Shown: one piece after another, positions 5,185 through 59,281 of the stretch
Layout of the letters: each line of letters starts with the position of its first letter
How positions within the stretch are numbered: the first letter of the stretch is position 1
From: Pontiella desulfatans
GTDB lineage: Bacteria; Verrucomicrobiota; Kiritimatiellia; Kiritimatiellales; Pontiellaceae
Direction: 5' to 3'
DNA: 64,000 nt
NCBI RefSeq assembly: GCF_900890425.1
Contig: NZ_CAAHFG010000001.1
Span: 3,534,001-3,598,000, forward strand
Program-made: the position numbers and the translations under genes
The notes under the pieces: model-generated
Told to the model about the DNA's origin: nothing
The model's database searches: none
Seen by the model: the letters and a program-made list of their open reading frames with translations, nothing else

Positions 5185-5250
5185 CTCATTCTCCTTTTGC
5201 TTATGTTTTTGCAACACGCTCCGATGGCGCTGCACCTATCATTCGAGCGT

Positions 5251-5320
5251 TTAAGATAACAATGGAATGGGGCCGAAAACAGGAACGTTATGTTGAATGC
5301 GGGTGTTGATATGTTTATTC
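5251..5320 (-). promoter_or_regulatory. Promoter module copy A
   Basis: One of six copies of a shared element. On the minus strand it opens with TGAATAAACATATCAACACC and ATTCAACATAACG. Hexamer TTCCTG follows, then 17 bp, then TTGTTA (bases 5257-5262). It points at the double-LamG gene, whose ATG is at 5184, giving an expected leader of about 65 bases. Its outer edge lies directly against the break point of the sulfatase remnant. Confidence 0.65.
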
Positions 5321-15680: not shown

Positions 15681-18600
15681 TTATTGGAGGCCGTTGATTA
15701 CCGCGTTCGCAACGTTCGAAACGCCGTATCCCTCATTCAGAATTTCCTGATGCAGCCAAATAAAGCCCCCTCCGCAATGATCCTTCCATTCAGAAAGCTG
15801 CGTCTCGACCTCTGCGGGGGTTTTCCAACCCGCATCACTCGGACTAATTGACAGCCCCGGGATCACCTTGAGGTCGCCGGTAAATTTTGTATTCCAGTTC
15901 TCAGGGTAATTCGCCGCGCCCCCGGCATAACACTGCACATAAATCCGATCCACCAGCCCCGGCTGATAGGCTTCGAGCTGTTCGTATACAGGATTCCAAA
16001 CGCCCTCCGGCCTCATGTACGGACAAAGCGTCACTTTATACCCCAAGACACTGAGCATTTTGCTGAACTCAACCATGGAATCCACGTCATAGTGCTCCTC
16101 GTCATCAAAGTTGATGGCATCGGCGCCCAGCACATCGCGCAACACCTTGAAAGACTGATAGAGCCGGCTGTCTTCGCCGGTTCCCTCGGCTTCGATCAAT
16201 GCATCGATATTCGCAAAACTGGCATCCCCCCACGCACTCACCGAAAACTCGATCCGCTTGACGGTTGAGGGCGCCGTTTTCAGATCCACCAGCTGCTCGA
16301 TCCAATCCTTTTCGCCAACATACCATCCGTGCTCCGCGAGCGGGTTTTCGGTCAAATTGTAGTTGATCTTCCCCTCGGAATTCACCTTTGCACTCCAAAG
16401 CAAAAGGGTGTCGAATCCGGACGACTTCACCTCTGCAGCATTATTACCGTAACTGCCATACATGCTGCCACCGGCAAAAAGCCCCACCGGCGTTTCGGGT
16501 CCATCCGGGGTTTCGCGAATCTCCAGCACGGAGTCATAGACCGACTCTTTGGACATCAAAACCAGCTCACTCGGGTCAACGGTCGTAATTGCAACCGAAT
16601 AGGTTCCCGTTGTAGTGATGTGGCCGAAAAAGTCGAAGGTATTCCAACCCTTGGATAAAGAAGCCTTTTTCGTGATCACGTCCCCCGACCCCGGACGATT
16701 CTTCCATGTGATGGTGCTTTCATCCCACGCATTATCAGCAACCGCACGAAACGTGACCTCATTGGAAACGGCTTGCGCGGCATACACCTTCAGCCAAACC
16801 TCCGAAATCGAGGAGGGCACCGCATCGACGTCAAACTTCAAATAGGAGACAAGTTTCTGTCCCGTCCCGCCGACACGAAGCGAAAGGTTGGTATTCGACC
16901 CATAGTTTGACGCGGTATTTGCCCCCGACACAAAGGAGTCGTCGACCGGTTTGAAAAGATATCCAAACCGGGGCACGGGATAGGTGTCGCTGCTTTGCAC
17001 ACGAAAAAACGACGACGCATTGGTCGTTTCGAGCGCCCACTCGGCCAGGCTGACTCCACTGGTGACCGCCACATCCGTCCACGCGCCGGAGGTCAGGCTC
17101 TCGCGCTGCTGAATCCTCAGATAGACATCGGCAGACAGATTCGTTGCTCCGACGAACATGTTCCCGGTGTCCAGGGAAATAGAGATCTTCGGCGCATTGA
17201 ATCCGACCGGCAAAATATCGAACGTCAGCTTCGCCAGCCGAATCTTTGTTGACCCTTCCATCAAGGCAATCTGGTCGCCATCACGAATCGGCATCGCATC
17301 CGAGAAGGAGCTGACATGGTTCGCGAGCAACCGCCCTGCACCGAGTTCGCCCGCCGGAACCTCCTGATTCCGCATCCAGAGATCGCCGCTGTATTCAGCG
17401 ACATCATTAAACAAACCAATTGCTGACAGCACAAGCGTCTGATCCGCCCCCAAGGAGAGTTCACTCAGGTCAAACGTCAAAATCAGCGCCTCGGAGTCCT
17501 GAATATCGCCATTCGTTTTTGTACTCGTCTGAACTCCCCATCCCTGGCTTGACATTGTGTGCACTACATTTCCCGTGCTTTGCCCGCCGCCGCTCCATGT
17601 AAATGGATTAAACCTCGAAGACCCGTCATCCACGGCCTGGAGATTCAGCTTGATGATTCCCGAAACGCCCTCGGAATCCAGAAATGAATCCTGCACGGAA
17701 TCGATGAGCGGCAGCGACGTAGTCGAGGACTCCAGCACAACGGAACCGGCCAGATTCGACCAGGTCAGATCAATCGAAGACGCATCCGTTCCCGCGACAA
17801 AGAAGTCCGTCACCACCCCGCCCTCTCCATTCGTCGCCGGCGTTTTCGCAGGCAAAGCGTCCTCCCATTCTTTGAGCGTGTCGAAATAGGTTCCGGCAAT
17901 CTCCGGATAGGCGTCGGCCACATTGACCGACTCCGAAAGATCTTCGTCCAGGTTGTAGAGACGAATCGTATCCCCCTGCAGATGCGCCTTCCACTTGCCG
18001 TCGCGCAGTGCCGACCAGCCCGGTTTATCGCACCAGAAAAGGGGAGTGGCCCGCTCTTGCGGGGAGCCCAGCCACGCCGCGCTCAGATCTTCGCCATCAA
18101 TATCCTCCGGCGCCGCCACGCCGTCGACCAGACCGGCCAGCGTAGGCAACAGGTCCACGCCGCAAAACACCGTACTCGAATCAATGCCCGACGGGATTTT
18201 ACCAGGCCACCGGACGAAGAATGGAACGTGGATCCCCCCGTCATGCAACGAACTCTTCCGATCCCGGTAGGGTCCGGCGGAGCCGACACTGTTCATCAAC
18301 TTCGGACTTTTCTCAAACCGCGGGATCAGCAGATCCCGCTCCCCAACTTTCAAGTACGGCGCCGGGCCGTTGTCGCTTGTAAAAACCACGATCGTATTAT
18401 CCTCAAGCCCAAGTGCCGCGAGGCTGCTGAGCAGACGGCCAATCTCTGTATCGACGGCGGTCACATCGGCACAAAATGCGCGCATGGCATTCGTCACATT
18501 TCCGTGTTCGGCAATAAACTCCAGAAAATCACGTTGCAGCGGGTCCTCAAAATCATCAATCGACACCTGTAGATCGTCATAAACCGCCAATTGTTCATCG

Positions 18601-19202
18601 GTTGGATTCACAATGGCGTGGGTGTTATGCACCCAAAGGTTGATAAAAAAAGGCTGATCCTTTTTGCGCGTCATAAAATCGATGGAGAGATCTACATAGC
18701 GGGCCGCCGTTCTTTCGCGATGATGCGATTCCGCCATCTCCTCGTCCGTCCATACCGGCCCGGTGCTCTGCGTGCCGAAATTCTCGTCAACTCCGTACTC
18801 GGCAGGCGGCGGCACCCCCTCGCTGTCCCCCATGTGCCACTTTCCGAAGTGGGCGGTGGCATAGCCCGCCTCTTTAAACATGCTCGTCAGCGTAGGCCGA
18901 TCCGCAGAAAGCTCCCAGTTGTTCACGTTAAACTCCCGTGCCGGATAGACCCCGTTCATTAACGCCGCCCGACTGGGCGAGCACCAAGCTCCAGCGGAAT
19001 ACGCCTGTTCCAGCAGGAGCCCTTCGTTCGCCAACCGGTCGATGTTGGGTGACTGAACATAGGGATGCCCCATCACCCCCAGGTCGCCATAACCCAAATC
19101 ATCCGTCAGAATAAAAATTATATTCGGCTGTTCCGCAAACACACCGCAAACAAATGCGCATGTTCCCAGCGCTACAAGACTGTGCAACCAACGTTTTCTC
19201 AT
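15681..19202 (-). CDS. Sulfatase - DNRLRE - GH18-like fusion protein
   Basis: Large exported protein of 1173 residues. Residues ~24-460 are a complete S1 sulfatase: LTDDLGYGDLG, C-S-P-S-R with Cys74, HFGKWHMGD, FTSDNGPAPYLK. It is close to the 10156-11562 paralogue but with many surface Lys changed to acidic or polar residues. Residues ~470-745 form beta-rich spacer modules. Residues ~748-900 look like a DNRLRE/CBM96-type domain (DDSFVSGANTASNYGS, LKFDVDAVPSSISEVWLKVY). Residues ~906-1173 resemble a GH18-type barrel. DAINFDDE at 1028-1035 fits the DxxDxDxE catalytic signature with Glu1035 as acid, and IEFSVSAWGD and RIYVQCYAGG match the flanking strands. It would couple ester removal with cleavage or binding of a GlcNAc-type linkage. 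It is the first gene after promoter module B. GH18 activity is inferred. Confidence 0.85.
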   Translation of the reverse strand: MRKRWLHSLVALGTCAFVCGVFAEQPNIIFILTDDLGYGDLGVMGHPYVQSPNIDRLANEGLLLEQAYSAGAWCSPSRAALMNGVYPAREFNVNNWELSADRPTLTSMFKEAGYATAHFGKWHMGDSEGVPPPAEYGVDENFGTQSTGPVWTDEEMAESHHRERTAARYVDLSIDFMTRKKDQPFFINLWVHNTHAIVNPTDEQLAVYDDLQVSIDDFEDPLQRDFLEFIAEHGNVTNAMRAFCADVTAVDTEIGRLLSSLAALGLEDNTIVVFTSDNGPAPYLKVGERDLLIPRFEKSPKLMNSVGSAGPYRDRKSSLHDGGIHVPFFVRWPGKIPSGIDSSTVFCGVDLLPTLAGLVDGVAAPEDIDGEDLSAAWLGSPQERATPLFWCDKPGWSALRDGKWKAHLQGDTIRLYNLDEDLSESVNVADAYPEIAGTYFDTLKEWEDALPAKTPATNGEGGVVTDFFVAGTDASSIDLTWSNLAGSVVLESSTTSLPLIDSVQDSFLDSEGVSGIIKLNLQAVDDGSSRFNPFTWSGGGQSTGNVVHTMSSQGWGVQTSTKTNGDIQDSEALILTFDLSELSLGADQTLVLSAIGLFNDVAEYSGDLWMRNQEVPAGELGAGRLLANHVSSFSDAMPIRDGDQIALMEGSTKIRLAKLTFDILPVGFNAPKISISLDTGNMFVGATNLSADVYLRIQQRESLTSGAWTDVAVTSGVSLAEWALETTNASSFFRVQSSDTYPVPRFGYLFKPVDDSFVSGANTASNYGSNTNLSLRVGGTGQKLVSYLKFDVDAVPSSISEVWLKVYAAQAVSNEVTFRAVADNAWDESTITWKNRPGSGDVITKKASLSKGWNTFDFFGHITTTGTYSVAITTVDPSELVLMSKESVYDSVLEIRETPDGPETPVGLFAGGSMYGSYGNNAAEVKSSGFDTLLLWSAKVNSEGKINYNLTENPLAEHGWYVGEKDWIEQLVDLKTAPSTVKRIEFSVSAWGDASFANIDALIEAEGTGEDSRLYQSFKVLRDVLGADAINFDDEEHYDVDSMVEFSKMLSVLGYKVTLCPYMRPEGVWNPVYEQLEAYQPGLVDRIYVQCYAGGAANYPENWNTKFTGDLKVIPGLSISPSDAGWKTPAEVETQLSEWKDHCGGGFIWLHQEILNEGYGVSNVANAVINGLQ

Positions 19203-19224: not shown

Positions 19225-19303
19225 TTAAGTGGTCAAAGATAGCAATAGAATGCGGCCATAAACATCCGCGTTATGTTGAATAAGGGTGTTGATTTGTTTA
19301 TTC
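19225..19303 (-). promoter_or_regulatory. Promoter module copy B
   Basis: On the minus strand: CGAATAAACAAATCAACACC, then ATTCAACATAACG, hexamer CGGATG, 17 bp, hexamer TTGCTA (19240-19245). The fusion sulfatase ATG is at 19202, giving a leader of about 31 bases. It would drive the 19.2->5.8 kb run. Confidence 0.68.
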
Positions 19304-28554: not shown

Positions 28555-30012
28555 CTACTCCACGGCTTCCATCTCTTGCTGAAACCGAACGGCCATGCCA
28601 CGCAGTTTGGCCTTCACCTTCCAGGCCTCAACCTTTGCAATGTCCTCCGGAGCCGTCGAAGCCAACAGTTCATCGCTCGGCCAGCGGGCGATCACCTCAA
28701 CGCGTTCGCCGGGATCCGCTTCCAGGTCATACAACCTTAGAGCCGGTGTTAGCGCCAATTTCCACTTTCCTGCGCGTACCGCTGAAAGCATCCCTTCACT
28801 GCCGTGATAGAAGAATGCATTCAAATACTCTTCCTGCGTAAACAGTCCCTGCCATTCACTGTCGAGCTGATACGGACGGCGCAACGGCACCGCAGCATTC
28901 AAAGAAACCGCCTCATCAAAAGCCGGAATTTCATCCGTCTCCGCGGTCAACAGGGCACTGAGGTCGCGGCCATCCAGAATGGCGTCATCAGGAACCTTAA
29001 TCCCTGCCAAAGAGGCCAGCGTCGGAAACCAGTCCATGGACCAGGTTAGTGCCGACGTCACCTCTCCTTCTGGAATACGCAGTCCGGGACCATACACCAC
29101 ACAGGGAACACGCAGCCCACCTTCATAGGTCGTCAGCTTGGTGCCTCGAATGGGCTGTTGCGGGGTTCGCCCCCCCAGCCGACCATTATCGGAGGTATAA
29201 ATTACGAGCGTATTGTCCGCCACACCGAACTGCTCCAGCGCATCCACCAGCTTGCCGGTATAAAAATCCATTTCCTGAACAGCATCGCCATAGAGCCCCC
29301 AATCCGACGATCCCTTAAACGCATCGGTCACGCCGAGCGGCTCATGGAGCATGGTATGGGGCAGATAGAGGAAAAAGGGGCGATTGTTATCCACCTGTGC
29401 ACCAATCCAGCGGATGGCCTCTTCGGTATAGAGCTTCACCAGCTCGCCCGGCGGCGTATTGCGGCGCAACACCGTATCATTGCGCAACAGCGGCATGCCG
29501 CCTTCGGCCTCGAACTGTCCAACCTCACAGGAGTCGAGGTTATGCAGGACTCCGTAGTAATGATCAAATCCTTTGCTTTTCGGGAGGAACTGCTCCTGAA
29601 AACCAACATGCCATTTGCCGATACAACAGGTGGCATACCCGGCCGTCTTAAAGAGCTCACCGAGCGTCAACCGGTCCGACGGGATCCCATGCTCTGAATC
29701 AGGGCGGTGCACCCAGATATGATTCCCTGAACGCCGCGGATAACACCCCGTCAGCAATCCGGCACGCGACGGACTGCAAATCGGTGCCGCCGAATAGTGA
29801 TCCGTGAACCGCAATCCCTTCGCCGCCAACGCATCAATCCGTGGTGTTTCAACCTCCGTTGCGCCATAGCAGCCGAGGTCGTAATACCCCTGATCATCGA
29901 CGAAAATGAAGAGGACGTTCGGTTGTTTTGCAATCGCCGAAGGAGTCGCAAGCGAGAGAAAACACACATAAAATAGAATCAGACCGAGACACCTGGATAT
30001 TGCTACATTCAT
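28555..30012 (-). CDS. Secreted sulfatase, first gene of its run
   Basis: Exported S1 sulfatase of 485 residues. The start is the ATG at 30012, ten bases after AAGGAG; the TTG three codons earlier is too close to that site. The leader is CLGLILFYVCFLSLATPSAIA. Motifs are IFVDDQGYYDLGCYG (about residue 37), C-S-P-S-R with Cys79, CIGKWHVGFQ, YTSDNGRLGGRTPQQPIRGTK and YEGGLRVPCVVYGPG. It is led by promoter module C and starts the series sulfatase, GH92, permease, sulfatase, beta-mannosidase, isomerase, with gaps of 11-50 bp throughout. Confidence 0.93.
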   Translation of the reverse strand: MNVAISRCLGLILFYVCFLSLATPSAIAKQPNVLFIFVDDQGYYDLGCYGATEVETPRIDALAAKGLRFTDHYSAAPICSPSRAGLLTGCYPRRSGNHIWVHRPDSEHGIPSDRLTLGELFKTAGYATCCIGKWHVGFQEQFLPKSKGFDHYYGVLHNLDSCEVGQFEAEGGMPLLRNDTVLRRNTPPGELVKLYTEEAIRWIGAQVDNNRPFFLYLPHTMLHEPLGVTDAFKGSSDWGLYGDAVQEMDFYTGKLVDALEQFGVADNTLVIYTSDNGRLGGRTPQQPIRGTKLTTYEGGLRVPCVVYGPGLRIPEGEVTSALTWSMDWFPTLASLAGIKVPDDAILDGRDLSALLTAETDEIPAFDEAVSLNAAVPLRRPYQLDSEWQGLFTQEEYLNAFFYHGSEGMLSAVRAGKWKLALTPALRLYDLEADPGERVEVIARWPSDELLASTAPEDIAKVEAWKVKAKLRGMAVRFQQEMEAVE

Positions 30013-30041
30013 TAAATTCAAACTCCTTAAAATTATCTCAG

Positions 30042-30120
30042 CTTAAAGTGGAGAAATGTAACAATAAAATTGAGCCGCAAACAGCAACGTTATGTTGAAT
30101 ATGTGTGTTGATTTGTTTAC
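30042..30120 (-). promoter_or_regulatory. Promoter module copy C
   Basis: On the minus strand: AAACAAATCAACACACATAT, TTCAACATAACG, hexamer TTGCTG, 17 bp, hexamer TTGTTA (30059-30064). The ATG at 30012 gives a leader of about 40 bases. It would drive the six-gene 30.0->19.9 kb run. Confidence 0.7.
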
Positions 30121-30190
30121 ACACTCAGTTTTGGCTCGGCACCTCCCGATGCTCGTTGGCGCCCAGTTCACTATTGAATGGATCGAGCGA

Positions 30191-31346: not shown

Positions 31347-31448
31347 ATCTTTGCGGAAATATCCCTTGAGCGGGAATCAATTCTGTTCTATTCCTCAAAT
31401 GAATCAGAACAGTTGACCACGACAGGATCGGATAAACAACGATACACC

Positions 31449-32471
31449 ATGACTGAAAAACGCATCACTCAAAAAGACCTTGCGCAACATCTGGGCGTCA
31501 ACCGGTCCACGATTACACGGGCGCTGAAGAATGATCCTCAAATCAGCCCGGTCATGCGCCAAAAAGTGAAACGCCTGGCCAAAAAACTGGGCTATCATCT
31601 GGATCCCAACCTTTCGCAGCTCATGGCGCAGATCCAAACCAAGGATCCCTCTAAACAGATCCGCACGCTCGCGGTGTGGAATCCCATGGAACATCCGATA
31701 TCCGAATCCGATACCCGCCTCAATTATGACTTCCGGGAAGTTTTCGCCGGCGCGAAGGAGCAGGCTTTGACCCTCGGCTATCAGCTCGAAGAATTCTGGC
31801 AGGGAACCTATACCCCGAAACGGCTGGCCAGCATCCTGCGCCATCGCAACGCGCAGGGTCTCCTCATGCTTCCATCGTATAAGACATACGAATTCGACTG
31901 CAACCTTCAGCGCCTTTCGGTGGTCTCTCTCGACTATTTCACAACGCACGCATTCCCGGTGCACCGCATCCTGCACGACACGCAATATGCGCTGGAGTTC
32001 ACACTGCACAAAGCGCACGAACTCGGATTCAAAAACCCGGCACTCATTTGCCCGGCCACACCCTCCAAGCCCACGGCCGAAATCATACGAGGCACCTTCG
32101 AAAGCATATACACCCACTATAATTCACTCACCCGAAACCAAAAGTTCCCATACTTCATTGTCGATCCCGACGACTCAAGGCAGATAAAGAGAATGGTGCG
32201 TTCCATCGAAAAAATAAGACCGGACCACATCATCACCTACCACTGCCATACCTTGGAAAAAATGTTCGACAACCAACTGCCGGAGAATACGCCGGTCTTC
32301 GATTTTTCACTAAAAGAACCCCAAGATAAAGGTCCCGGCATTCGCCCCCCCTCTCGTGCCATCGGCGCCTGTGCCATTCGAAAAATCATCTCCATGATCC
32401 ATACCGGCGAACGTGGCATCCCTGAATTCCCGGAAACAACCTACATTCGCGGAACGTGGGAAACGCCGTAG
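31449..32471 (+). CDS. LacI-family transcriptional regulator
   Basis: DNA-binding regulator of 340 residues. The ATG at 31449 places the helix-turn-helix (ITQKDLAQHLGVNRSTITRALKND) at residues 5-28, as usual for LacI proteins; a TTG at 31413 would add twelve residues. The linker region reads KVKRLAKKLGYHLDPNLSQLM. The rest is a periplasmic-binding-protein-like effector domain (LAVWNPMEHPI, VFAGAKEQALTLGYQLEEFW, GLLMLPSYK). The sugar effector is unknown. Two sulfatases follow on the same strand and two palindromes lie upstream, so autoregulation and control of both directions are plausible. The Shine-Dalgarno match is weak. Confidence 0.88.
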   Translation: MTEKRITQKDLAQHLGVNRSTITRALKNDPQISPVMRQKVKRLAKKLGYHLDPNLSQLMAQIQTKDPSKQIRTLAVWNPMEHPISESDTRLNYDFREVFAGAKEQALTLGYQLEEFWQGTYTPKRLASILRHRNAQGLLMLPSYKTYEFDCNLQRLSVVSLDYFTTHAFPVHRILHDTQYALEFTLHKAHELGFKNPALICPATPSKPTAEIIRGTFESIYTHYNSLTRNQKFPYFIVDPDDSRQIKRMVRSIEKIRPDHIITYHCHTLEKMFDNQLPENTPVFDFSLKEPQDKGPGIRPPSRAIGACAIRKIISMIHTGERGIPEFPETTYIRGTWETP

Positions 32472-49871: not shown

Positions 49872-52502
49872 TTACTGAAAGGCATACAGATAGCCGTCCG
49901 TGCACAACACATACGCCCGGCGACCTGAGATGGCCGGAATCGACTCCTGAAAAATCCCGCCAACCTTCGTGCGCCACAGAATTCGAGGACTCCCATCCGG
50001 ATTGGGTTCCAGCGCCAGACAGGTCACAAAATGATCCGTCGAAGATCCGCAAATCACCGTCTCAGGCGTGCAGACCGAACCGGTCCAGCCGCCTGCACCG
50101 TCATAGTGCCAAAGCTCTTTACCGGTATGCGTATCCAAACAAAACAGCCGGGCGCCCATGGCGACCCCATCGTGATCAATCGTTGTGGAAGCAAATGTAT
50201 AATCGCCCGAATGCGACGGGGTGGAATTCATGCGGGTGTGCCCGGTTTTCGTGCGCGGATCGACAAAGTTCCAGATCTTTTTTCCGGTGTTCGGATCAAT
50301 CGCTGTCAGCGACTTTTGGGTTCGGGCAATAAAGCGACCCTTCCAGAGCGTTCCGGCGGCCGAATCGGGATACGGGCAGGAAAACACCCACTCCAGCGCG
50401 CCGGAAAATTTATTCAGTGCATAGTACCCGCCATCCCAGGATCCGGTATACACCTTATCCGCATCCACTGCGGGCGACGGATAGACCCCGCCATTGGTTT
50501 TATGCTCCCACAGTTCCTGACCGTTTCCGGCATCCAGCGCAATAATCCGGCCATCCACTGTTCCAGCAAACACACGGCCCTCATCCGGCATACTGGAGAC
50601 CCAAACCCAGCCCGGGTGGCTCGTCCAAATCGGATCGCCGGTCCTGGCATCCACACAGAACATTTCGTCATTGCCGCCCTGCTGGCCGAAATAAACGCGC
50701 CCATCCTGCACCCCAGGTGCGCCGGAAACCTGCCCAGAGGTCTCAAAACGCCAAATCTCCTCCCCGCTGGCCGCATCCACGGCAAACACGAAGCGCGAGG
50801 GTGTCCCTGCATACACGATTCCGTCGCACACCGTAGGCGGACTCTGGAAATCGCCGCCGCCAGCCACCACGTCGGCCACCATCCGCTCCCCGTCTTCATA
50901 CGAACACTCCAGCAGGCTGTGTTTCCACTGTAGTTGTCCGTTCTGCGGATTCAGCGAATAGAGAAACAGTTCGGACGAACTCACCAGGACGCCGCGCTCG
51001 CTGCCGCTCAAATCCGCGAAAATCTGATGCTCCCCGGCCGGCACGGACCACAGCGTCTGAACGGATGAGTCGTTGTATTGCATACAGTGGACCTGCCCGC
51101 TCAGCGTAGCCGCATAAACCTTGTCTTTCAGGACAAACGGCCTGGCTCGCACCCAGTCATCCGTCTCCGCCTTCCAGCACAGACGGCCGCTCTGCAGGTC
51201 CACGCAATAGAGCTCTTTTGTGGCCGAACCAATAAAGATTTTACCCTGCTCAATCATCGGGCTGGAAAACAGGTGAAATGCGCGCGGATTCCCCCGATTC
51301 AGGCGGGTGCTCCAGCGCAGTGCACCGCTCTCACGGTCAATTCCCAGCAGCATCCCGGTCTCTGTGGCAGCAATCAGCAGGTCTTCCGCCGCCGCAGGCG
51401 TGCAGCGAATCGGGCCGTTGGCCTGATACACCCATTTTACGCGCTGCTGACCATTCAGGTTCAGGGCATACAGCTTTCCCTCATCCGTCCCGGCAACCGC
51501 AAGGTCGCCATCGAGCAGAATATCACCGAACAGCTCGCCGACCCGCATCTCCCATCCGGTTCCGTCCGCCGTGTTTTTCACACAAACGGTATCCAGCATG
51601 CCGACCGTTGCCGGGCGCTTCGTTAAATCCAGGCGACTGCGGGGAAACGCAATCCACTCCTCATTGCCCGAAACCGGTGCGTAGCCCCGACGGTAATCAA
51701 TGCGGTTGGCATCGGTCTGTTCCACCACCTCACCGCTGGCTTTATCGACATGGAAAATGTGCTTTGCCCGATCTGTAAAGACGATCTGACCGTCCGCCTG
51801 TTTCTCATATTCCCAGCTGCCGCTTGTCGCGCGGATCACCACTCGATCGTCCTGAATCACAGGTCGGGAGGCCGCTTTGGGCGTGGAATAAATCTGCAAT
51901 CCGTCCTGCTCGGTCGTCCAGACCGGCTGCCCCGTCTGTTCATCCAGACAGTACAGCAGGGTGCGCAGCCCCGGCGATGCCACATACACGCGGCCGTCCT
52001 CCACAGCAGCAGCGGCGTACCACGCCAGACCGGCGGAAAACTTCCAGGCCACCTCGCCGATTACCGGCCCGGCATCCGGAGAAAATCCAGACTGGCTCCG
52101 CCCTCCGCCAAAAACAGGCCAATCCGTCTCAGATACATTCTCACTGAACGAATTCGGATCGCCCCTTACTTCGGAAATAAAATTCGGATGCTCCAGCAGC
52201 TCCTCCATTTGGGCATAGGCTTCATCAAGAACCGGGTAGTGCTCCGGCTTCACCGGCCCCCATTGAGACAGAATCAATCCCGCCTCATGAAGCGAACTCA
52301 GATCCATCCCGCGATGAATCATATGTCGAAACCAGGAAAACAGCACCGACTGGCGATGCATCGAATTCTCATCATTCGTCGGCACCCTCCGCATCTCCTG
52401 CCGAACCTGATCAATCGCATCAACCCCGGTGCTCAACTGTGCAAGCGAATGCGTATGCAAAAAAAGACTGCCCGCCAGAAAAATGAACCCGAATTTACTC
52501 AT
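49872..52502 (-). CDS. Exported PQQ-type beta-propeller protein
   Basis: Exported protein of 876 residues; the ATG at 52502 follows GGAGGAAG. After a signal peptide (about residues 1-22) and a helical stretch it carries many PQQ_2/quinoprotein-like blades: LYCLDEQTGQPVWTTE, LYALNLNGQQRVKWVY, LLGIDRESGALRWSTR, YCVDLQSGRLCWKAE, FAVDAASGEEIWRFE, IALDAGNGQELWEHK and more. I see no Cys-Cys or ligand set that would prove PQQ-dehydrogenase activity, so it may be a structural or assembly scaffold. It is the first gene of the 52.5->42 kb run, led by promoter module E and divergent from the AraC regulator. Confidence 0.85.
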   Translation of the reverse strand: MSKFGFIFLAGSLFLHTHSLAQLSTGVDAIDQVRQEMRRVPTNDENSMHRQSVLFSWFRHMIHRGMDLSSLHEAGLILSQWGPVKPEHYPVLDEAYAQMEELLEHPNFISEVRGDPNSFSENVSETDWPVFGGGRSQSGFSPDAGPVIGEVAWKFSAGLAWYAAAAVEDGRVYVASPGLRTLLYCLDEQTGQPVWTTEQDGLQIYSTPKAASRPVIQDDRVVIRATSGSWEYEKQADGQIVFTDRAKHIFHVDKASGEVVEQTDANRIDYRRGYAPVSGNEEWIAFPRSRLDLTKRPATVGMLDTVCVKNTADGTGWEMRVGELFGDILLDGDLAVAGTDEGKLYALNLNGQQRVKWVYQANGPIRCTPAAAEDLLIAATETGMLLGIDRESGALRWSTRLNRGNPRAFHLFSSPMIEQGKIFIGSATKELYCVDLQSGRLCWKAETDDWVRARPFVLKDKVYAATLSGQVHCMQYNDSSVQTLWSVPAGEHQIFADLSGSERGVLVSSSELFLYSLNPQNGQLQWKHSLLECSYEDGERMVADVVAGGGDFQSPPTVCDGIVYAGTPSRFVFAVDAASGEEIWRFETSGQVSGAPGVQDGRVYFGQQGGNDEMFCVDARTGDPIWTSHPGWVWVSSMPDEGRVFAGTVDGRIIALDAGNGQELWEHKTNGGVYPSPAVDADKVYTGSWDGGYYALNKFSGALEWVFSCPYPDSAAGTLWKGRFIARTQKSLTAIDPNTGKKIWNFVDPRTKTGHTRMNSTPSHSGDYTFASTTIDHDGVAMGARLFCLDTHTGKELWHYDGAGGWTGSVCTPETVICGSSTDHFVTCLALEPNPDGSPRILWRTKVGGIFQESIPAISGRRAYVLCTDGYLYAFQ

Positions 52503-52584
52503 CAATCACTTCCTCCATACTATACGCAACTACCCTGCCACACATCTATTCGGCGGGCGCACACTTCGATAATCTGTTTAAAAC

Positions 52585-52649
52585 TAACATCCACCGTCAC
52601 CGACAAACAGCTTGATTCCGTTGAAATACAAGTGTAAATTTGTTGAATG
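52585..52649 (-). promoter_or_regulatory. Promoter module copy E (diverged), overlapping the AraC start
   Basis: On the minus strand: AACAAATTTACACTTGTATT, TCAACGGAATCA, hexamer AAGCTG (52608-52613), 17 bp, hexamer ATGTTA (52585-52590). The first bases overlap the ATG of the AraC gene. It points at the beta-propeller gene (ATG 52502). It is less similar to A-D than they are to each other but has identical spacing. Confidence 0.5.
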
Positions 52650-53513
52650 AAGCCGATGGATGAAATCTTTTACTGGCCGACCCATGAGCTGTCACAACTG
52701 GCCGCCGTCTGGCCCGAAGCGATCGGTCGAAAAAACTGCGGCGACACCCTGCTATCCAACCGCAACGGCGGATATGTCAGCTTCAACTATCTTCACCGCG
52801 GCACTCTGCGGCACCAGCTCGGTCGCAACCCGAAGAGCCGGATCAAAGCCGGCAGCGCATTCGCCATTCTGCCCGGGCAGCACTATTCCTACATCGCCGA
52901 TGAAGCCGACGAAAACGACCCCCTCATGCTGTGGGTCCGTCTGGCTGGCCCCGGCGCAAAGCAACTGATTAAGACCATGGGAATGGAACCCCGAACCCAG
53001 CGCATACAGATACAGCAGCCGGCCCAGCTCATGACCCTCTGGAAGGAACTCTTTACCCTGCAGGAAAGGCATTGCGGAGTGGTCTCTGACGCCGCCGCCA
53101 TTGCACTGCTCTACCAAATGATCCCACTGTGCTCCCCCGACTCCAACCACACCGGCATGGATGAAACCCCCGGCTCCCTGGCCCAGCGCATTCGAAACTT
53201 TATGTATGACGAACTGGAGCGCGGTTATAATGTCAGCCAGATTGCCCAGTTTTTCAAACTCTCCCGCTCCAGCCTCTTTCTGCACTTCAAACGGGAATTC
53301 GACCAATCCCCAATTGCTGTCCTCAAACAGGCGCGTCTATCCAAAGCCCGGCATCTACTGACCGAAACCGATCTGCCAATGGAAGCCATCGCCCGAGCCT
53401 GCGGATACACCAGCACCAACCACTTTTTCCATCAATTCAAAAGCGAACTGGGCACCACGCCGCTGGCCTACAAAGAACTCCCGAAGGAACTGAACCCAAA
53501 CCGCCCCGAATAA
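52647..53513 (+). CDS. AraC-family transcriptional regulator
   Basis: Cytoplasmic activator-type regulator of 288 residues. Residues ~10-140 look like a cupin-like sensor (GGYVSFNYLHRGTLRHQLG, AILPGQHYSYIADEAD). Residues ~180-280 are the double helix-turn-helix DNA-binding domain: GYNVSQIAQFFKLSRSSLFLHFKREF for the first, and MEAIARACGYTSTNHFFHQFKSELGTTPLAYKE for the second, the most conserved AraC signature. No strong Shine-Dalgarno is seen. Its own start codon lies within promoter module E and module D begins exactly at its stop, so it is the best candidate for the regulator that reads these modules. The inducer is probably a sugar, unknown. Confidence 0.92.
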   Translation: MKPMDEIFYWPTHELSQLAAVWPEAIGRKNCGDTLLSNRNGGYVSFNYLHRGTLRHQLGRNPKSRIKAGSAFAILPGQHYSYIADEADENDPLMLWVRLAGPGAKQLIKTMGMEPRTQRIQIQQPAQLMTLWKELFTLQERHCGVVSDAAAIALLYQMIPLCSPDSNHTGMDETPGSLAQRIRNFMYDELERGYNVSQIAQFFKLSRSSLFLHFKREFDQSPIAVLKQARLSKARHLLTETDLPMEAIARACGYTSTNHFFHQFKSELGTTPLAYKELPKELNPNRPE

Positions 53514-53585
53514 ACATTTCAACACCCGTATTCAACATAATGTTGCTGTTTACGGCCTCTTCCCATTGTTACCTTTAGACACTTA
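53509..53585 (+). promoter_or_regulatory. Promoter module copy D
   Basis: CGAATAAACATTTCAACACC, ATTCAACATAATG, hexamer TTGCTG (53543-53548), 17 bp, hexamer TTGTTA (53566-53571). It begins within the AraC stop codon and faces the PEP-CTERM gene whose ATG is at 53646. Confidence 0.7.
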
Positions 53586-53645
53586 ACTGAAATAAGTGTA
53601 ACGCCAACGGAGCGTGCTGCAAACGCAGTGAAACAAAAGGCGACA

Positions 53646-54404
53646 ATGATGAAACAGAAACAAAAGTACCTTCTGCCCCTTATAACCCCCCTGCTGATCG
53701 GCGCAGCGGTTCAGGCCGGCGTCATCACCAACTATTATGATGGCTTCGAAGGAACCGGAAACGGCGCCAACCTCAATACGCGCCCCGCCCCGGAGGGAAC
53801 CCTGACCGCCAACTGGTTTTCGAGGGCAGCCATCAAAACAACAGGGTCCGCGGTCACAATTACGGACGGCGCCGGCGATAATCCCTCCAACGCATCGCTT
53901 GGTTTCACGGCGGAAGCGGGAAAAATCTACGCCCTCTCCGCAGACCTGAATAACATCAGCACCGCATCTTTCGACTCAGTCTGGCTGGGCTTCCGGGATG
54001 ACAGATCTGGCACTGCGGCCTTTACGACCAACAATGCCACCGCCGCACGAGTCTTCCGCAGGGCCGATGGCGACTATACGATTCGAACCGAAGATGGCAC
54101 TGGCAGCCTTGTTGAGACCTCAGGATCCGGCACCATGAAACTGGTGCTCGACACCACCGAATCCGCATGGACGATCACGACGTACTGGAACGACGAACTC
54201 GCCGGCGCCACCTACACATACACTGAAAATCCGGACATTACCCACGTAGGGTTCGGCTTTTCAGGAGGAGGCGTAGAAGAACCCACTCAATTCGACAACA
54301 CGGTGAACAACTTCAGCCTGACGGTCATTCCGGAACCGTCAACCCTCGGCCTTCTCACGGCCTCCTCAGCCGGCCTCCTGCTTCTGCGACGTCTCCTCAT
54401 CTAG
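53646..54404 (+). CDS. PEP-CTERM-anchored surface protein, second copy
   Basis: Exported protein of 252 residues: signal peptide (about residues 1-25, ending VQAG), a beta-rich body, and the PEP-CTERM tail VIPEPSTLGLLTASSAGLLLL followed by RR. The ATG at 53646 follows AAAAGGCG. It resembles 30249-31070 over its length, so the two are paralogues under different control: this one by module D, the other by the LacI region. A surface or exopolysaccharide-associated binding role is likely. No catalytic residues are recognised. Confidence 0.86.
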   Translation: MMKQKQKYLLPLITPLLIGAAVQAGVITNYYDGFEGTGNGANLNTRPAPEGTLTANWFSRAAIKTTGSAVTITDGAGDNPSNASLGFTAEAGKIYALSADLNNISTASFDSVWLGFRDDRSGTAAFTTNNATAARVFRRADGDYTIRTEDGTGSLVETSGSGTMKLVLDTTESAWTITTYWNDELAGATYTYTENPDITHVGFGFSGGGVEEPTQFDNTVNNFSLTVIPEPSTLGLLTASSAGLLLLRRLLI

Positions 54405-54442: not shown

Positions 54443-54470
54443 GTTTGCTGTATACAGCCCGTATCAGATC

Positions 54471-54529
54471 AACATTTTCACACCTCAATTAAACTGAATC
54501 AACCTGTTTAACAACACAGGGCGATGCTA
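54471..54529 (+). promoter_or_regulatory. Promoter module copy F (diverged)
   Basis: AACATTTTCACACCTCAATT, AAACTGAATCA, hexamer AACCTG (54501-54506), 17 bp, hexamer ATGCTA (54524-54529). It matches copy E at 30 of 40 bases without gaps. The -10-like hexamer coincides with the first in-frame ATG of the transporter, so translation must begin further down. Confidence 0.5.
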
Positions 54530-54562
54530 GCTTTAAAGATATCAATTAACAACAACAGGCTT

Positions 54563-55951
54563 ATGAAACACAAACAAAACACGCAACGCTCCCCCTCGGC
54601 ATCCGCCCTTTCTTTCCGAGAAAAAATCGGATACGGAACCGGCGACCTGGCCATGAGTATTTTCTGGCAATTGTTCGGAATGTTCCTGATGTATTTTTAC
54701 ACCGATGTATTCGGCCTTTCCGCGGCGGCGGTGGGAACCATGTTTCTGGTGACCCGGGTCTGGGACACGGCCAACGATGTGATTGCCGGGGTCATCTGCG
54801 ACCGAACGAAAAGCCGGTGGGGAAAATTTCGGCCCTGGCTGCTGTGGGCGGCGCTGCCGCTGGTGATCACAGGGTATTTGACCTTCAGCACCCCGGATCT
54901 CGGTGCAACACAGAAACTGATCTATGCCTACATTACCTACACGCTGGTGGGGATGGCCTATACCATGATCAATGTGCCCTACGGCGCACTGCTGGGAGTG
55001 ATGAGCCCCAATCCCGACGACCGTGTCAGCCTGGCCTCCTACAAATTCGTGCTGGCCTTCGTCGGCTGCCTGGTGGTGCAGGCCCTGACGCTTCCGCTGG
55101 TCGCGAAGCTCGGTGGCGGGAACGAAGCGCTTGGCTTTAAACTGGTGCTGATTATTTACGGTGTTGTGGCCATTGCGCTTTTCTATGTGACCTTTGCCTC
55201 CACTCGGGAACGGGTTGAGCCGCCCAAAGAGCAGGACAACAACTTCAGGCGCGATATAAAGAACCTGCTGAGCAACGGCCCCTGGCTGGCTACGCTGGGC
55301 GTGGGAATGGCGGTTCTTTTATGTGTCTCCATCCGCAATGGGTCGATCATCTACTATTTTAAATATTATGTCGGCAAGGAGTCGCTCGCGACCTCGTTTA
55401 TGGTGGCCGGCTCGCTAGCGGCCATTGTCGGCACCATGCTGGTGAAGCCTGTCGCGGTACGGTTGGGCAAACGAAATACCTTTATCGGCATGATGGTGCT
55501 GAGCGCGGTGCTGATGGGGATGACCTATCTTATGAAGCCGGATGCTCTCGTTGAGCTCTTTGTCCTTCAGGTGGTCATCAATCTGATTTCCCAGCCGGCG
55601 TTTGCCCTGCTTTGGTCGATGCTTTCCGATGTGGCCGACTACGGGGAGTGGAAAGACGGACGGCGCGCAACCGGCCTCGTCTTTTCTGCGGGCAGTATGG
55701 CGCTCAAAATGGGCTGGACGATCGGCGGGGCCATCACCGGCTGGGTACTGGCGGGCTACGGATTCGAGGCCAATGTGGAGCAGACCGAGCGCGGCCTGGA
55801 AGGAATCCGGCTGTTGCTCAGCCTGCTGCCCATGGGCGGAGCAATCCTCACAGCCATTGCCCTCTGGTTCTATCCGTTGACGGAAAAACGAATGAGAGAA
55901 ATCGAAGCAGATTTGACTGCGCGTAGAAAAGGAAATAACAATGAATTTTAA
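54563..55951 (+). CDS. GPH-family sugar:cation symporter
   Basis: Inner-membrane glycoside-pentoside-hexuronide:cation symporter (MelB-like) of 462 residues with about 12 hydrophobic helices. Signature parts are LSFREKIGYGTGDLAMSIFWQL, FLVTRVWDTANDVIAGVICDRTKSRWGKFRPWLLW (the conserved cation/sugar loop), and SDVADYGEWKDGRRATGLVFS. The ATG at 54563 is chosen because the earlier in-frame ATG at 54524 is inside the -10-like box of promoter module F; the Shine-Dalgarno is weak at both. Its end overlaps the glycyl radical enzyme start by 11 bp. It probably imports the oligosaccharide or acid sugar used by the following enzymes. Confidence 0.9.
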   Translation: MKHKQNTQRSPSASALSFREKIGYGTGDLAMSIFWQLFGMFLMYFYTDVFGLSAAAVGTMFLVTRVWDTANDVIAGVICDRTKSRWGKFRPWLLWAALPLVITGYLTFSTPDLGATQKLIYAYITYTLVGMAYTMINVPYGALLGVMSPNPDDRVSLASYKFVLAFVGCLVVQALTLPLVAKLGGGNEALGFKLVLIIYGVVAIALFYVTFASTRERVEPPKEQDNNFRRDIKNLLSNGPWLATLGVGMAVLLCVSIRNGSIIYYFKYYVGKESLATSFMVAGSLAAIVGTMLVKPVAVRLGKRNTFIGMMVLSAVLMGMTYLMKPDALVELFVLQVVINLISQPAFALLWSMLSDVADYGEWKDGRRATGLVFSAGSMALKMGWTIGGAITGWVLAGYGFEANVEQTERGLEGIRLLLSLLPMGGAILTAIALWFYPLTEKRMREIEADLTARRKGNNNEF

Positions 55952-58364
55952 GAATGTAAATGTCGAAGGTTTTCGCGTCCCGACGGGGCAGCATACGGCG
56001 GCCGGGCAGGAAGAGTTTGATCATGAGGCGCTGCGCACAAAGCTGCAGGTTGCCTGGCGTTTCACCCAGACCTACAAGCAGTATCAGAACGCTCCCGTTG
56101 CGATTCGCGAGGCGCATTGCCTGTCCGAACAGTATCCCGCCACGTGTCAGACCGTTCGGGATCATGATCTGATAGCAGGGCGACTTCTCTATATGCCTTT
56201 GGTCGGATTCCAGCTGGAGAATGTGGTCAACTCCGATATCGAAGTGCTGCAGACCGATCGCCGACCGGAATCCGCATTGACGACGGAAGAGAAGCAGGTG
56301 CGTGACACCTTGGCTACAGCTCAGAGCGGCTATCTGTCGGATTATTCTTCGCTGCGCCAGTTGCTCTCGCTTACGGATGATGAGGCCGAGCAGCGTGCGA
56401 TTCAGGAGATGATGGATTTCTGGATGAAGGAGGCTTCCTCCCAAAAATATATGCAGGCATTGCCGCAGGATATTAAAGATGGCTTTGGGCGCGTGACGAT
56501 GGAGTGCCAGTATGCGTCGACCTTCTTCCGCGTCTGCTGCACGTCCGTGGATTACGACAAACTGCTTCAGCACGGCATTCCCGGCATGCGCGCGCTCATC
56601 GGCAGCAAAAAAGAGGCGGCCGCCCTCAACGGCGACTCAACCGATCTGTACGAAGGGATGCTGCTGGGACTCGATGTGCTGGTCAGTGTCTGCGATTTTT
56701 ACCGGAAGCAGTGCCTCGACCTGTTCGAGGAAGCAACCGATGCCGCCCGCAAACGCGAACTGCAGAAGATGGCCGCGGCGCTGGACGCCGTAACGAAGCG
56801 CAAACCGGAAACCCTGAGCGAAGCGATGCAGCTGTTCTGGGCCTATGACATGATTATCGACACCGTTAACTACGGCCGTATGGACGTCTACTTCGGCGAT
56901 TTTTATGCGCATGACCTCGACAACGGAATCGAAACAGAGGCAAGTGCCTTTGAGCTGATCATGTCGTTATGGCACCTGATCTCCGAGCAGGCCGATGACG
57001 GCTTCGGCAGCTACCGCTTTAATGCCCGCATCATTGTCGGCGGAAAAGGTCGCCGCAATGAGGCCAACGCCGACCGGTTTGCAGTTGCAGCCCTTGAGGC
57101 AACACGGCAGCTCAAACGGACCGAACCGACGACGACGCTGCGTTTCTACAAGGGGCAGAATCCTGAACTGATGGATAAGGCCATGGAATGCCTCAAAGAA
57201 GGCTGCGTCCACCCGACGCTTTATAACGACGAACGCCATATTCCCATGACGCAACAGGCCTTCGACGTAACCGCCGAAGAAGCCGAACAGTACCTGCCAC
57301 AGGGTTGCGGTGAGATGACGGTCGATCATATCAGCATCGGGTCACCCAACAATATCATCAACTTTGTCACAGCGCTCGATCTCGTGCTGCACAATGGGTT
57401 CAGCACCGAGACGCAGGAAGTGCGCGGACTGCAGCCGGGCAAACTTGAGACCTTCGATACCTTTGAAAAACTGGTCGATGCCCTTAAGGCTCAGGTGGAC
57501 TACACGAATGGTCTGTTCGCCCGACGCCATATGGTGGAATATCAGGTGGCCCGCGAAACAGCCGCCTACCTGTTCATCAGCATGCTGACTGACGACTGCA
57601 TTGAGCGCAACCAGGCCTGCTTCGACGGCGGAACCCGCTACCTCGGCGCCACCATCGAAACCTTTGGCCTGACCAACGTCTGCGACAGCCTGATCGCCAT
57701 CAAAGACCTGGTCTACGACAAAAAACTGCTGACGCTGGAACAGATCGTCGAGGCATGCGACGCGAACTTCCAGGGCTACGGTAAGATTCAGAAGATGCTG
57801 CTCGCCGCGCCGAAATACGGCAACGACCTGGATGTGATCGATACCTTCCATAAAGAGCTCAGCGCCTGGCTCTGCGCAAATGCCAACGAGAAAGCCAAAC
57901 CGGCCGGACTGCACTACCTGCTTAATTGCAACCTGAACCCGGACGGCATCCGTTATGCGGTCAACACCAAAGCCTCCCCGGACGGACGGGTGTACGGCGA
58001 AGCGTTTGCCGTCGGCTGCGCGCCGACCGCCGGCCGCGACCAAAACGGCATCACCGCCGTTCTCAACTCCATGTCGAAGCACGATGAACTGCACTCCGGC
58101 TACGTTCACAACCTGAAGGTGGGCCACAGCCTGTTTGCTCCGGAAAACATCAAGGCATTCCGAGCACTGATCGACACCTACTTCGAAAAGGGCGGCTGGC
58201 AGCTGATGGTTACCGTGCTCAACCCCGACGACCTTCAGAAGGCCATGGAGGAGCCGAAAAACTATTCGCATATCATGGTGCGTGTCGGCGGTTGGACGGC
58301 GCGGTTTGTGGACCTCCCGCCGGAACACCAGACTGAAATCCTGCACCGGACACTGTACTGCTGA
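55941..58364 (+). CDS. Glycyl radical enzyme of unassigned substrate (PFL/diol dehydratase superfamily)
   Basis: Oxygen-sensitive radical enzyme of 807 residues in the cytoplasm. The thiyl site is PQGCGEMT (Cys456, Glu458), the Cys-x-Glu arrangement of dehydratase/lyase-type glycyl radical enzymes and not the CC pair of pyruvate formate-lyase. The radical loop is RVGGWTARF with Gly784; family members usually have Tyr or Phe where Trp785 is. ASPDGRVYGEAFAVGCAPTAGRDQNG matches the conserved pre-loop region. AAAAGGAAATAACA precedes the ATG, and the stop overlaps the activase start (TGATG). There are no microcompartment genes nearby. Position among mannan-salvage genes suggests a sugar- or polyol-derived substrate. 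Confidence 0.93.
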   Translation: MNFKNVNVEGFRVPTGQHTAAGQEEFDHEALRTKLQVAWRFTQTYKQYQNAPVAIREAHCLSEQYPATCQTVRDHDLIAGRLLYMPLVGFQLENVVNSDIEVLQTDRRPESALTTEEKQVRDTLATAQSGYLSDYSSLRQLLSLTDDEAEQRAIQEMMDFWMKEASSQKYMQALPQDIKDGFGRVTMECQYASTFFRVCCTSVDYDKLLQHGIPGMRALIGSKKEAAALNGDSTDLYEGMLLGLDVLVSVCDFYRKQCLDLFEEATDAARKRELQKMAAALDAVTKRKPETLSEAMQLFWAYDMIIDTVNYGRMDVYFGDFYAHDLDNGIETEASAFELIMSLWHLISEQADDGFGSYRFNARIIVGGKGRRNEANADRFAVAALEATRQLKRTEPTTTLRFYKGQNPELMDKAMECLKEGCVHPTLYNDERHIPMTQQAFDVTAEEAEQYLPQGCGEMTVDHISIGSPNNIINFVTALDLVLHNGFSTETQEVRGLQPGKLETFDTFEKLVDALKAQVDYTNGLFARRHMVEYQVARETAAYLFISMLTDDCIERNQACFDGGTRYLGATIETFGLTNVCDSLIAIKDLVYDKKLLTLEQIVEACDANFQGYGKIQKMLLAAPKYGNDLDVIDTFHKELSAWLCANANEKAKPAGLHYLLNCNLNPDGIRYAVNTKASPDGRVYGEAFAVGCAPTAGRDQNGITAVLNSMSKHDELHSGYVHNLKVGHSLFAPENIKAFRALIDTYFEKGGWQLMVTVLNPDDLQKAMEEPKNYSHIMVRVGGWTARFVDLPPEHQTEILHRTLYC

Positions 58365-59281
58365 TGGGCGACAACCCACAAAGTGCCGGTACCGTCTTCG
58401 ATGTTCAGCGGTTTTCGCTGCACGACGGGCCGGGCATTCGCACAACGGTCTTCCTGAAAGGCTGCCCGCTGCGTTGCCTCTGGTGCCACAATCCGGAGTC
58501 GATCGATTTTCGCCCCGAGATCGGTTGGCGCCCGGAGCACTGCACCGGCTGCGGCGCCTGCATTGAAGCCTGCCCGGAGGGATGCCATCAGCTCAGCCAA
58601 GAGGACTCGCATCATCGGTTCGACCGCGCCGACTGCACCCGTTGCGGACGGTGCGCCGAAGCCTGCGCGTTCGGTGCCCTGACACGCATCGGCAAGCGCA
58701 TGGGCGTAGACGAGGTGATGACGGAAGTCCTTAAAGACCGCGCGTACTATAAAACCTCGGGCGGCGGCCTGACCCTCTCCGGTGGCGAGCCGCTGGCTCA
58801 GCCTGAATTTGCTGAAGCCCTGCTCTCTGCGGCCCGGTCCGAGGGCATCCATACGGCCGTGGAAACCTCCGGGCAGGTGCGTTTCCAAACATTGGAAAAC
58901 ATGGTGGAACTCACCGATCTGTTTCTGTTTGACCTCAAAGAAACCGATCCGGCGCGACACGAAACATATTCCGGCATGGACGGTCAATTGATTCGCGAAA
59001 ACCTCCAGCGACTCAACGCGCTGGGTGCGGACATCATCCTTCGCTGCCCGATCATCCCGACCCTCAATGACCGCCCCGGCCATTTTGCACAAATCTCGGA
59101 TCTGGTAAACTCGCTGAGCCATATCCGGGAAGTACATGTGATGCCCTACCACCCCTTCGCATCACATAAATATTCGGAACTCGGCAAGTCGGCCCCGCTA
59201 GGCAGAATTGAAGCCCCTGATGAACCCCAAAAGAAGCAGTGGGTGCATGCGCTGAAGGTCTCATGCCCGGTTCACATCTAA
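58364..59281 (+). CDS. Glycyl radical enzyme activase (radical SAM)
   Basis: Radical SAM protein of 305 residues that installs the glycyl radical on its neighbour. The 4Fe-4S/SAM site is C-x3-C-x2-C at Cys34, Cys38, Cys41 (KGCPLRCLWCHNPES). Two inserted ferredoxin-type clusters follow: Cys60/63/66/70 (CTGCGACIEAC) and Cys91/94/97/101 (CTRCGRCAEAC). The SAM-binding GGEP segment is LTLSGGEPLAQPEF. Two extra clusters are typical of activases for dehydratase-type glycyl radical enzymes. Its ATG overlaps the enzyme's stop by one base, so the pair is certain. Confidence 0.95.
   Translation: MGDNPQSAGTVFDVQRFSLHDGPGIRTTVFLKGCPLRCLWCHNPESIDFRPEIGWRPEHCTGCGACIEACPEGCHQLSQEDSHHRFDRADCTRCGRCAEACAFGALTRIGKRMGVDEVMTEVLKDRAYYKTSGGGLTLSGGEPLAQPEFAEALLSAARSEGIHTAVETSGQVRFQTLENMVELTDLFLFDLKETDPARHETYSGMDGQLIRENLQRLNALGADIILRCPIIPTLNDRPGHFAQISDLVNSLSHIREVHVMPYHPFASHKYSELGKSAPLGRIEAPDEPQKKQWVHALKVSCPVHI

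Follow-up and report, generated by a model that had tools for sequence, protein, structure and literature searches.

The locus examined here raises the question of why a gene for an AraC-family regulator in Pontiella desulfatans lies between two copies of a repeated sequence module, and whether its product reads these modules and limits its own synthesis through them. The gene is part of a window of 64,000 nucleotides (C1:3534001-3598000) from the 8.66 Mb genome of this marine bacterium, which degrades sugar sulfates. The source bacterium's strain F1 and Pontiella sulfatireligans F21, both cultured, carry 521 and 480 sulfatases, respectively, and were reported to be the richest in sulfatases of any organism then known (PMC6388578). 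Sites were searched for genome-wide with patterns and with covariance models using sequence only. Computed results are the sites themselves, how many there are and how they cluster, their architecture and conservation, and their co-occurrence with the regulator; from these we infer binding, activation, ligand and autorepression.

The regulator is encoded on the forward strand at 52647..53513 by an open reading frame of 288 aa, whose assignment rests on a match to HTH_18 and on a homologue with 89% identity. The protein belongs to the AraC/XylS family by its C-terminal double helix-turn-helix (HTH) of about 100 residues. In Pfam this region (residues 199-276) matches HTH_18 at 4.4e-20 (72.2 bits, cut-off 33.6) and HTH_AraC at 41.8 bits (cut-off 26.6). 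Over the HTH it also matches the solved relatives AraC, XylR and Rns, the best being XylR at 6e-12, and the NCBIfam AraC model is matched at 1.5e-13 over residues 119-281, under that model's cut-off. An N-terminal domain resembling AraC_binding (residues 45-157) is weakly matched in Pfam, at 1.2e-3 and 19.0 bits, just under the cut-off of 21.1, and the homologue scores 21.1 bits, exactly at the cut-off. The AlphaFold model, built from two sequences, is reliable for the HTH alone, with pLDDT below 50 at the N-terminus. The only close homologue found is that of P. sulfatireligans, which was the sole match in a scan of 85,000 species genomes that finds close relatives only.

The two modules meet the ends of this gene almost exactly. 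Module E (52605..52647, forward strand; core AAACAGCTTGATTCCGTTGAAATACAAGTGTAAATTTGTTGAA) is predicted to be the operator between the regulator gene and a gene for a PQQ-like protein. The module closes with the box GTTGAA (52642-52647), the final base of which is also the A of the regulator's ATG, so the overlap with the start codon claimed in the sequence-only reading amounts to one base; the conserved tail of the module runs on into TGA. Module D (53508..53571, reverse strand) joins an operator containing the regulator's TAA to the -35-like element TTGTTA of a PEP-CTERM gene. Its core extends on the reverse strand from 53551 down to about 53508, and the TTGTTA occupies 53566-53571 on the forward strand. 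The last box of D, TGTTTA, reads TAAACA on the forward strand (53511-53516) and holds the entire stop codon (53511-53513), in agreement with the earlier observation that D begins within the TAA. As that reading stated, the gene is bracketed by one module facing each way, E on the forward and D on the reverse strand. This bracketing is well above chance, and the probability of a double bracket by chance, given the clustering of the sites, is roughly estimated at 1-2% (9 modules in about 75 intergenic spaces), which is not negligible.

Both sites score highly in the genome. Module D is the top genome match of model R1 (86.5 bits) and module E that of model R2 (70.4 bits), each model having been trained on a set that included the site in question. 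With a position weight matrix (PWM) built from class 1 sites without D, D scored 64 bits and the next site in the window, E, 23 bits; with one built from class 2 sites without any E-type site, E scored 50 bits, second only to F. Module E is a variant rather than an exact copy, in that its central spacer is longer by one base, and it groups with F and a third site. The resulting 22-bp spacing is exclusive to the E type among the site types.

The sequence-only reading described six modules in the window, A to F. All six are real, and three further copies lie outside the window. Together, two profile models and a gapped pattern identified nine modules in the 8.66 Mb, all of them at C1:3454635-3588509, a span of 134 kb that corresponds to one sulfatase/GH92 cluster. 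The gapped pattern alone found 8 sites in the genome and its reversed control none. A covariance model of A-D returned six strong sites, namely A, B, C, D, X and Y; the pattern recovered these plus E and F, and G was added by the second model, that of the class 2 sites. The remaining matches of the profile models were noise (E-values of 0.3 or worse). A generic repeat finder did not pick up the modules, and its list was filled with short two-copy chance repeats. Outside the window are X (C1:3454635, class 1), G (C1:3522389, class 2) and Y (C1:3532695, class 1, 1.3 kb left of the window). The six class 1 sites, A, B, C, D, X and Y, follow the pattern CAACGTTATGTTGAAT..GTGTTGATATGTTTAT, and the three class 2 sites, E, F and G, follow TTGATTnCGTTGAAT..TGTGAATTTGTTGAA. 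When the window was scored with the class 2 PWM, class 1 sites ranked directly behind E and F, which indicates one recognition pattern common to both classes; plausibly, then, a single protein could read both. In module Y a class 1 left half is followed by the right half of G together with its flank (common stretch AATCAAGATGTGAATTTGT.GAAGGGAACCGG), so that it looks like a recombinant operator.

The internal structure of the modules is that expected for the family. AraC-type proteins have a pair of HTH motifs in each subunit, and two such subunits bound to the same face of the DNA would read a direct repeat of 21 bp together with one of 10 bp. The modules contain such a tandem direct repeat at about two helical turns. 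In class 2 the repeat falls at exactly 21 bp, with none of 3000 column shuffles reaching it at that spacing and p=0.005 over any spacing from 10 to 26, the E-type sites (22 bp) having been trimmed by hand by one base for register. When both classes were pooled, p was 0.001 at spacing 21 and 0.013 over any spacing; class 1 sites alone show a weak 21-bp repeat (p=0.013 at 21, 0.23 over all spacings). Class 2 also possesses a weaker 10-bp repeat (p=0.04).

Additionally, an alignment of A-F revealed an invariant TAnCA block at a constant distance from the operator in both classes, which on the complementary strand reads as a -35-like TTGTTA or ATGTTA. In class 1, about 14 bp separate the end of the operator from the -35-like element, a -10-like element follows about 17 bp beyond the latter, and then comes the gene start. 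The gene towards which a module points is therefore the one on its AAAC side. Thus, module A (5250..5320, forward strand) would drive the leftward ORF 3316-5235(-), which has no Pfam match, B (19233..19303, forward strand) the leftward sulfatase-CBM96 gene 15681-19202(-), and C (30052..30122, forward strand) the leftward sulfatase gene 28555-30021(-). Module E also points left, and D and F point right. It is improbable that the regulator works at the modules chiefly by repression that its ligand lifts, instead of by activation. AraC itself is a repressor when its ligand is missing (PMC7499043) and the direction of control is not readable from sequence, but the operators stand upstream of the -35-like element, where an activator would bind.

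Duplication has contributed to the spread of the modules, which raises the alternative that, instead of being operators, they are promoter segments that were duplicated, or passive repeats, carried along as cluster genes multiplied. Some modules do share longer flanks of about 110-200 bp, modules coincide with rearrangement breakpoints, and the set clearly grew in part through duplication. Nevertheless, this explanation is very improbable, given that the operator columns are conserved above the flanks, that F, E and G have a common operator but little common flank, and that the sites show direct-repeat periodicity and a fixed distance to the -35-like element. A mobile element was ruled out as well; no termini were seen, and the flanks of E, F and G are unrelated.

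Since the -35-like elements of E and D lie on the far side from the regulator, E is predicted to serve the divergent propeller gene and D the PEP-CTERM gene. The predicted target of E (49872..52505, reverse strand; 877-aa ORF) encodes a PQQ-like/BamB-like beta-propeller protein (PF13570, PF13360). The ORF has a TTG start, and the likely start is an ATG near 52502 with the Shine-Dalgarno-like GGAGG ahead of it. Its -35-like element, ATGTTA (52585..52590, reverse strand), is part of the invariant block and is spaced from the operator as in A-D. The predicted target of D (53646..54404, forward strand; ORF from 53628, likely ATG at 53646) matches PEP-CTERM weakly, at 20.0 bits against a cut-off of 20.7, and its ortholog lies behind module g2382 in P. 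sulfatireligans. Module F (54469..54536, reverse strand; 21-bp repeat) precedes a putative target operon (54524..59281, forward strand) for a GPH:cation symporter, a PFL-like glycyl-radical enzyme and its activase. Against the enzyme and activase (55941-59281), the models for HypD, sulfopropanediol dehydratase and CutC all scored far under cut-off. Based on these elements, the regulator gene appears to be flanked by two outward-pointing predicted promoters, with E and D primarily the predicted operators of the two neighbouring genes.

In the window, the cluster (1222-63000) encodes about 11 sulfatases, three GH92 proteins, a GH2 mannosidase-like protein, a GH130 and a GlcNAc-epimerase-like protein, a content which points to a sulfated alpha-mannan, or a glycan related to it, as the substrate. 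Elsewhere in the region, an ORF at C1:3523722-3526769 encodes a protein in which, unusually, a hydrazine-synthase-alpha-like domain is fused to an FGE-sulfatase domain.

The AraC-family protein is very probably the dedicated regulator of this surrounding sulfatase/alpha-mannosidase (GH92) cluster. Its position exactly between two modules, with all nine inside its likely target cluster, makes it probably the master switch of the cluster. Although the genome encodes 55 HTH_18 proteins, it is the only one within the module span, and likewise only one of the 44 in P. sulfatireligans lies within the span there. The gene has three modules within 1 kb, and regulator and sites have been inherited together. 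Among 288 genomes of the class, multiple sites were found only in the two with a close homologue of the regulator (8 and 10 by pattern); three others had one isolated pattern match each, and two matched the reversed control once. As the genomes with multiple sites belong to sister species, this co-occurrence counts as one evolutionary event. The bracket is also present in P. sulfatireligans, the one relative with the gene in which the synteny of regulator and modules could be compared; its E-type site ends on the ATG and its D-type site holds the TAA. Overall, the proposal that this protein is the cognate regulator is strongly supported by the clustering of the sites, its status as the sole AraC-type gene in the span, the co-occurrence, the 21-bp repeat and the conserved bracket.

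The modules might instead be bound by another regulator, with the AraC-family protein as a bystander. Candidates would be a distant AraC paralogue or one of two LacI-type regulators in the cluster, at 31413-32468 in the window and at C1:3499037-3500056 (outer-cluster proteins were scanned in part); the stretch around the former is about 93% identical between the two species. This possibility is quite improbable, as the sites are asymmetric 21-bp direct repeats, unlike the short palindromes of LacI proteins, and as the nearest paralogue is encoded on another contig and shares 40% identity over the HTH only. The proximity of three modules to the gene and the co-occurrence also speak against it. 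A LacI operator was ruled out, there being no short palindrome conserved across all copies.

As the cognate regulator, the protein would act as a dimer on the 21-bp direct repeat, with a half-site of about TTGAtTnnGTTGAA, upstream of the -35-like element. Its ligand would probably be an oligosaccharide derived from the cluster's own breakdown of a sulfated, mannose-containing polysaccharide, and in its presence the protein would activate the nine promoters within 134 kb, E driving the propeller gene leftward and D the PEP-CTERM gene rightward. As with the araBAD-araC system of E. coli (araI1-araI2), an AraC-family HTH is paired with a tandem direct-repeat site upstream of the -35 element, target and regulator are divergent, and a site lies near the regulator's own start. 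In contrast to E. coli, multiple dispersed operons (9 sites, 134 kb) are involved here, operators lie on both sides of the regulator, and no looping site was identified for the Pontiella protein. RhaS and XylR of E. coli belong to the same family and share the role in sugar catabolism, but the similarity is clear in the DNA-binding domain alone; the XylR sensor is LacI-like, whereas that of the Pontiella protein is weakly of the AraC_binding type. The polysaccharide utilization loci of Bacteroidetes, with their hybrid two-component or SusR regulators, similarly combine one local regulator with a polysaccharide cluster containing many sulfatases and GH92 enzymes, whereas here a one-component AraC protein is combined with many short operator-promoter modules. 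A literature search found no paper on this regulator or on AraC control in Pontiella; the term AraC was absent from the main text of the Pontiella papers searched, one of which mentions only two-component systems near sulfatases. A local AraC regulon is an ordinary kind of system, and this particular regulon is newly described. With its nine sites and likely regulator, it offers a direct way to find out which of the sulfatases, GH92 mannosidases and transporters act together on one substrate.

Whether the regulator also represses itself through E is a secondary matter. No initiation region of the gene is visible other than the one under module E, so that binding there would probably limit the regulator's synthesis, and the overlap is present in both species. 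From the sequence, no Shine-Dalgarno-like element is apparent upstream of the ATG. A possible weak leaderless promoter inside E (52612..52640, forward strand) reads TTGATT-17-TAAATT, ends 6 nt before the ATG, has 8 of 12 consensus matches and is TTGATT-17-TAGATT in the homologue. Its TTGATT also simply belongs to the class 2 boxes, and a consensus promoter and terminator scan of 52480-53700 reported nothing, this candidate included. Autorepression by the regulator bound at E is geometrically possible and plausible, with the balance tilted only slightly in its favour. The competing explanation, which falls somewhat short of an even chance, is that E and D are merely operators of the neighbours, between which the gene came to lie by history, and that it is not autoregulated through them, although its product may still be cognate. 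The outward direction of both sets of promoter elements fits this explanation, as does a locus in P. sulfatireligans where E is kept before a propeller gene (PQQ1) and the adjacent regulator gene is cut to its first codons. On the other hand, in both species the intact gene has its ATG at the very end of E and lacks any other apparent initiation region, and autoregulation is frequent among local AraC-family regulators.

The locus just mentioned is part of a larger difference between the two species. P. sulfatireligans possesses 15 modules (ten by pattern, two more from model R1 and three from R2), of which 14 surround its regulator gene at C1:2195718-2383224 and the remaining one is located on C5, a small contig. 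Between the two species the operators are conserved better than any other segment, at 91% identity against 73-77% in the flanks. The propeller gene and E, to the left of the regulator in P. desulfatans, are about 96% identical to a second place in P. sulfatireligans, C1:2365660-2368439, and beside it, at C1:2368439, just the first codons of the regulator gene are left. The right neighbourhood (PEP-CTERM, MFS and glycyl-radical enzyme genes) matches from C1:2382227 onward, with a degraded 3' end of the regulator gene at C1:2382070-2382237 ahead of the module. These remnants are the 5' and 3' parts of a second copy of the gene. They flank about 14 kb containing another propeller gene, E', the intact regulator gene, D' and further modules, which places both breakpoints at modules E and D; the regulator locus has been rearranged, with breakpoints at its operators. 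The retention of E at a propeller gene without the regulator gene indicates that E is independent of an adjacent regulator and fits a role as the operator of the propeller gene. A bolder and rather unlikely extension is that the operators serve as homology seams and the regulator with its flanking operators as a shuffling cassette, so that recombination at operators would rewire the regulon between sister species, the 22-bp E type being an autoregulatory derivative, weakened relative to the 21-bp target sites. In P. sulfatireligans the gene behind D' (C1:2378230 onward) appears to begin with ATG-TAA, so that the PEP-CTERM target beside the intact regulator copy looks broken, and an intact relative is present at 2382273.
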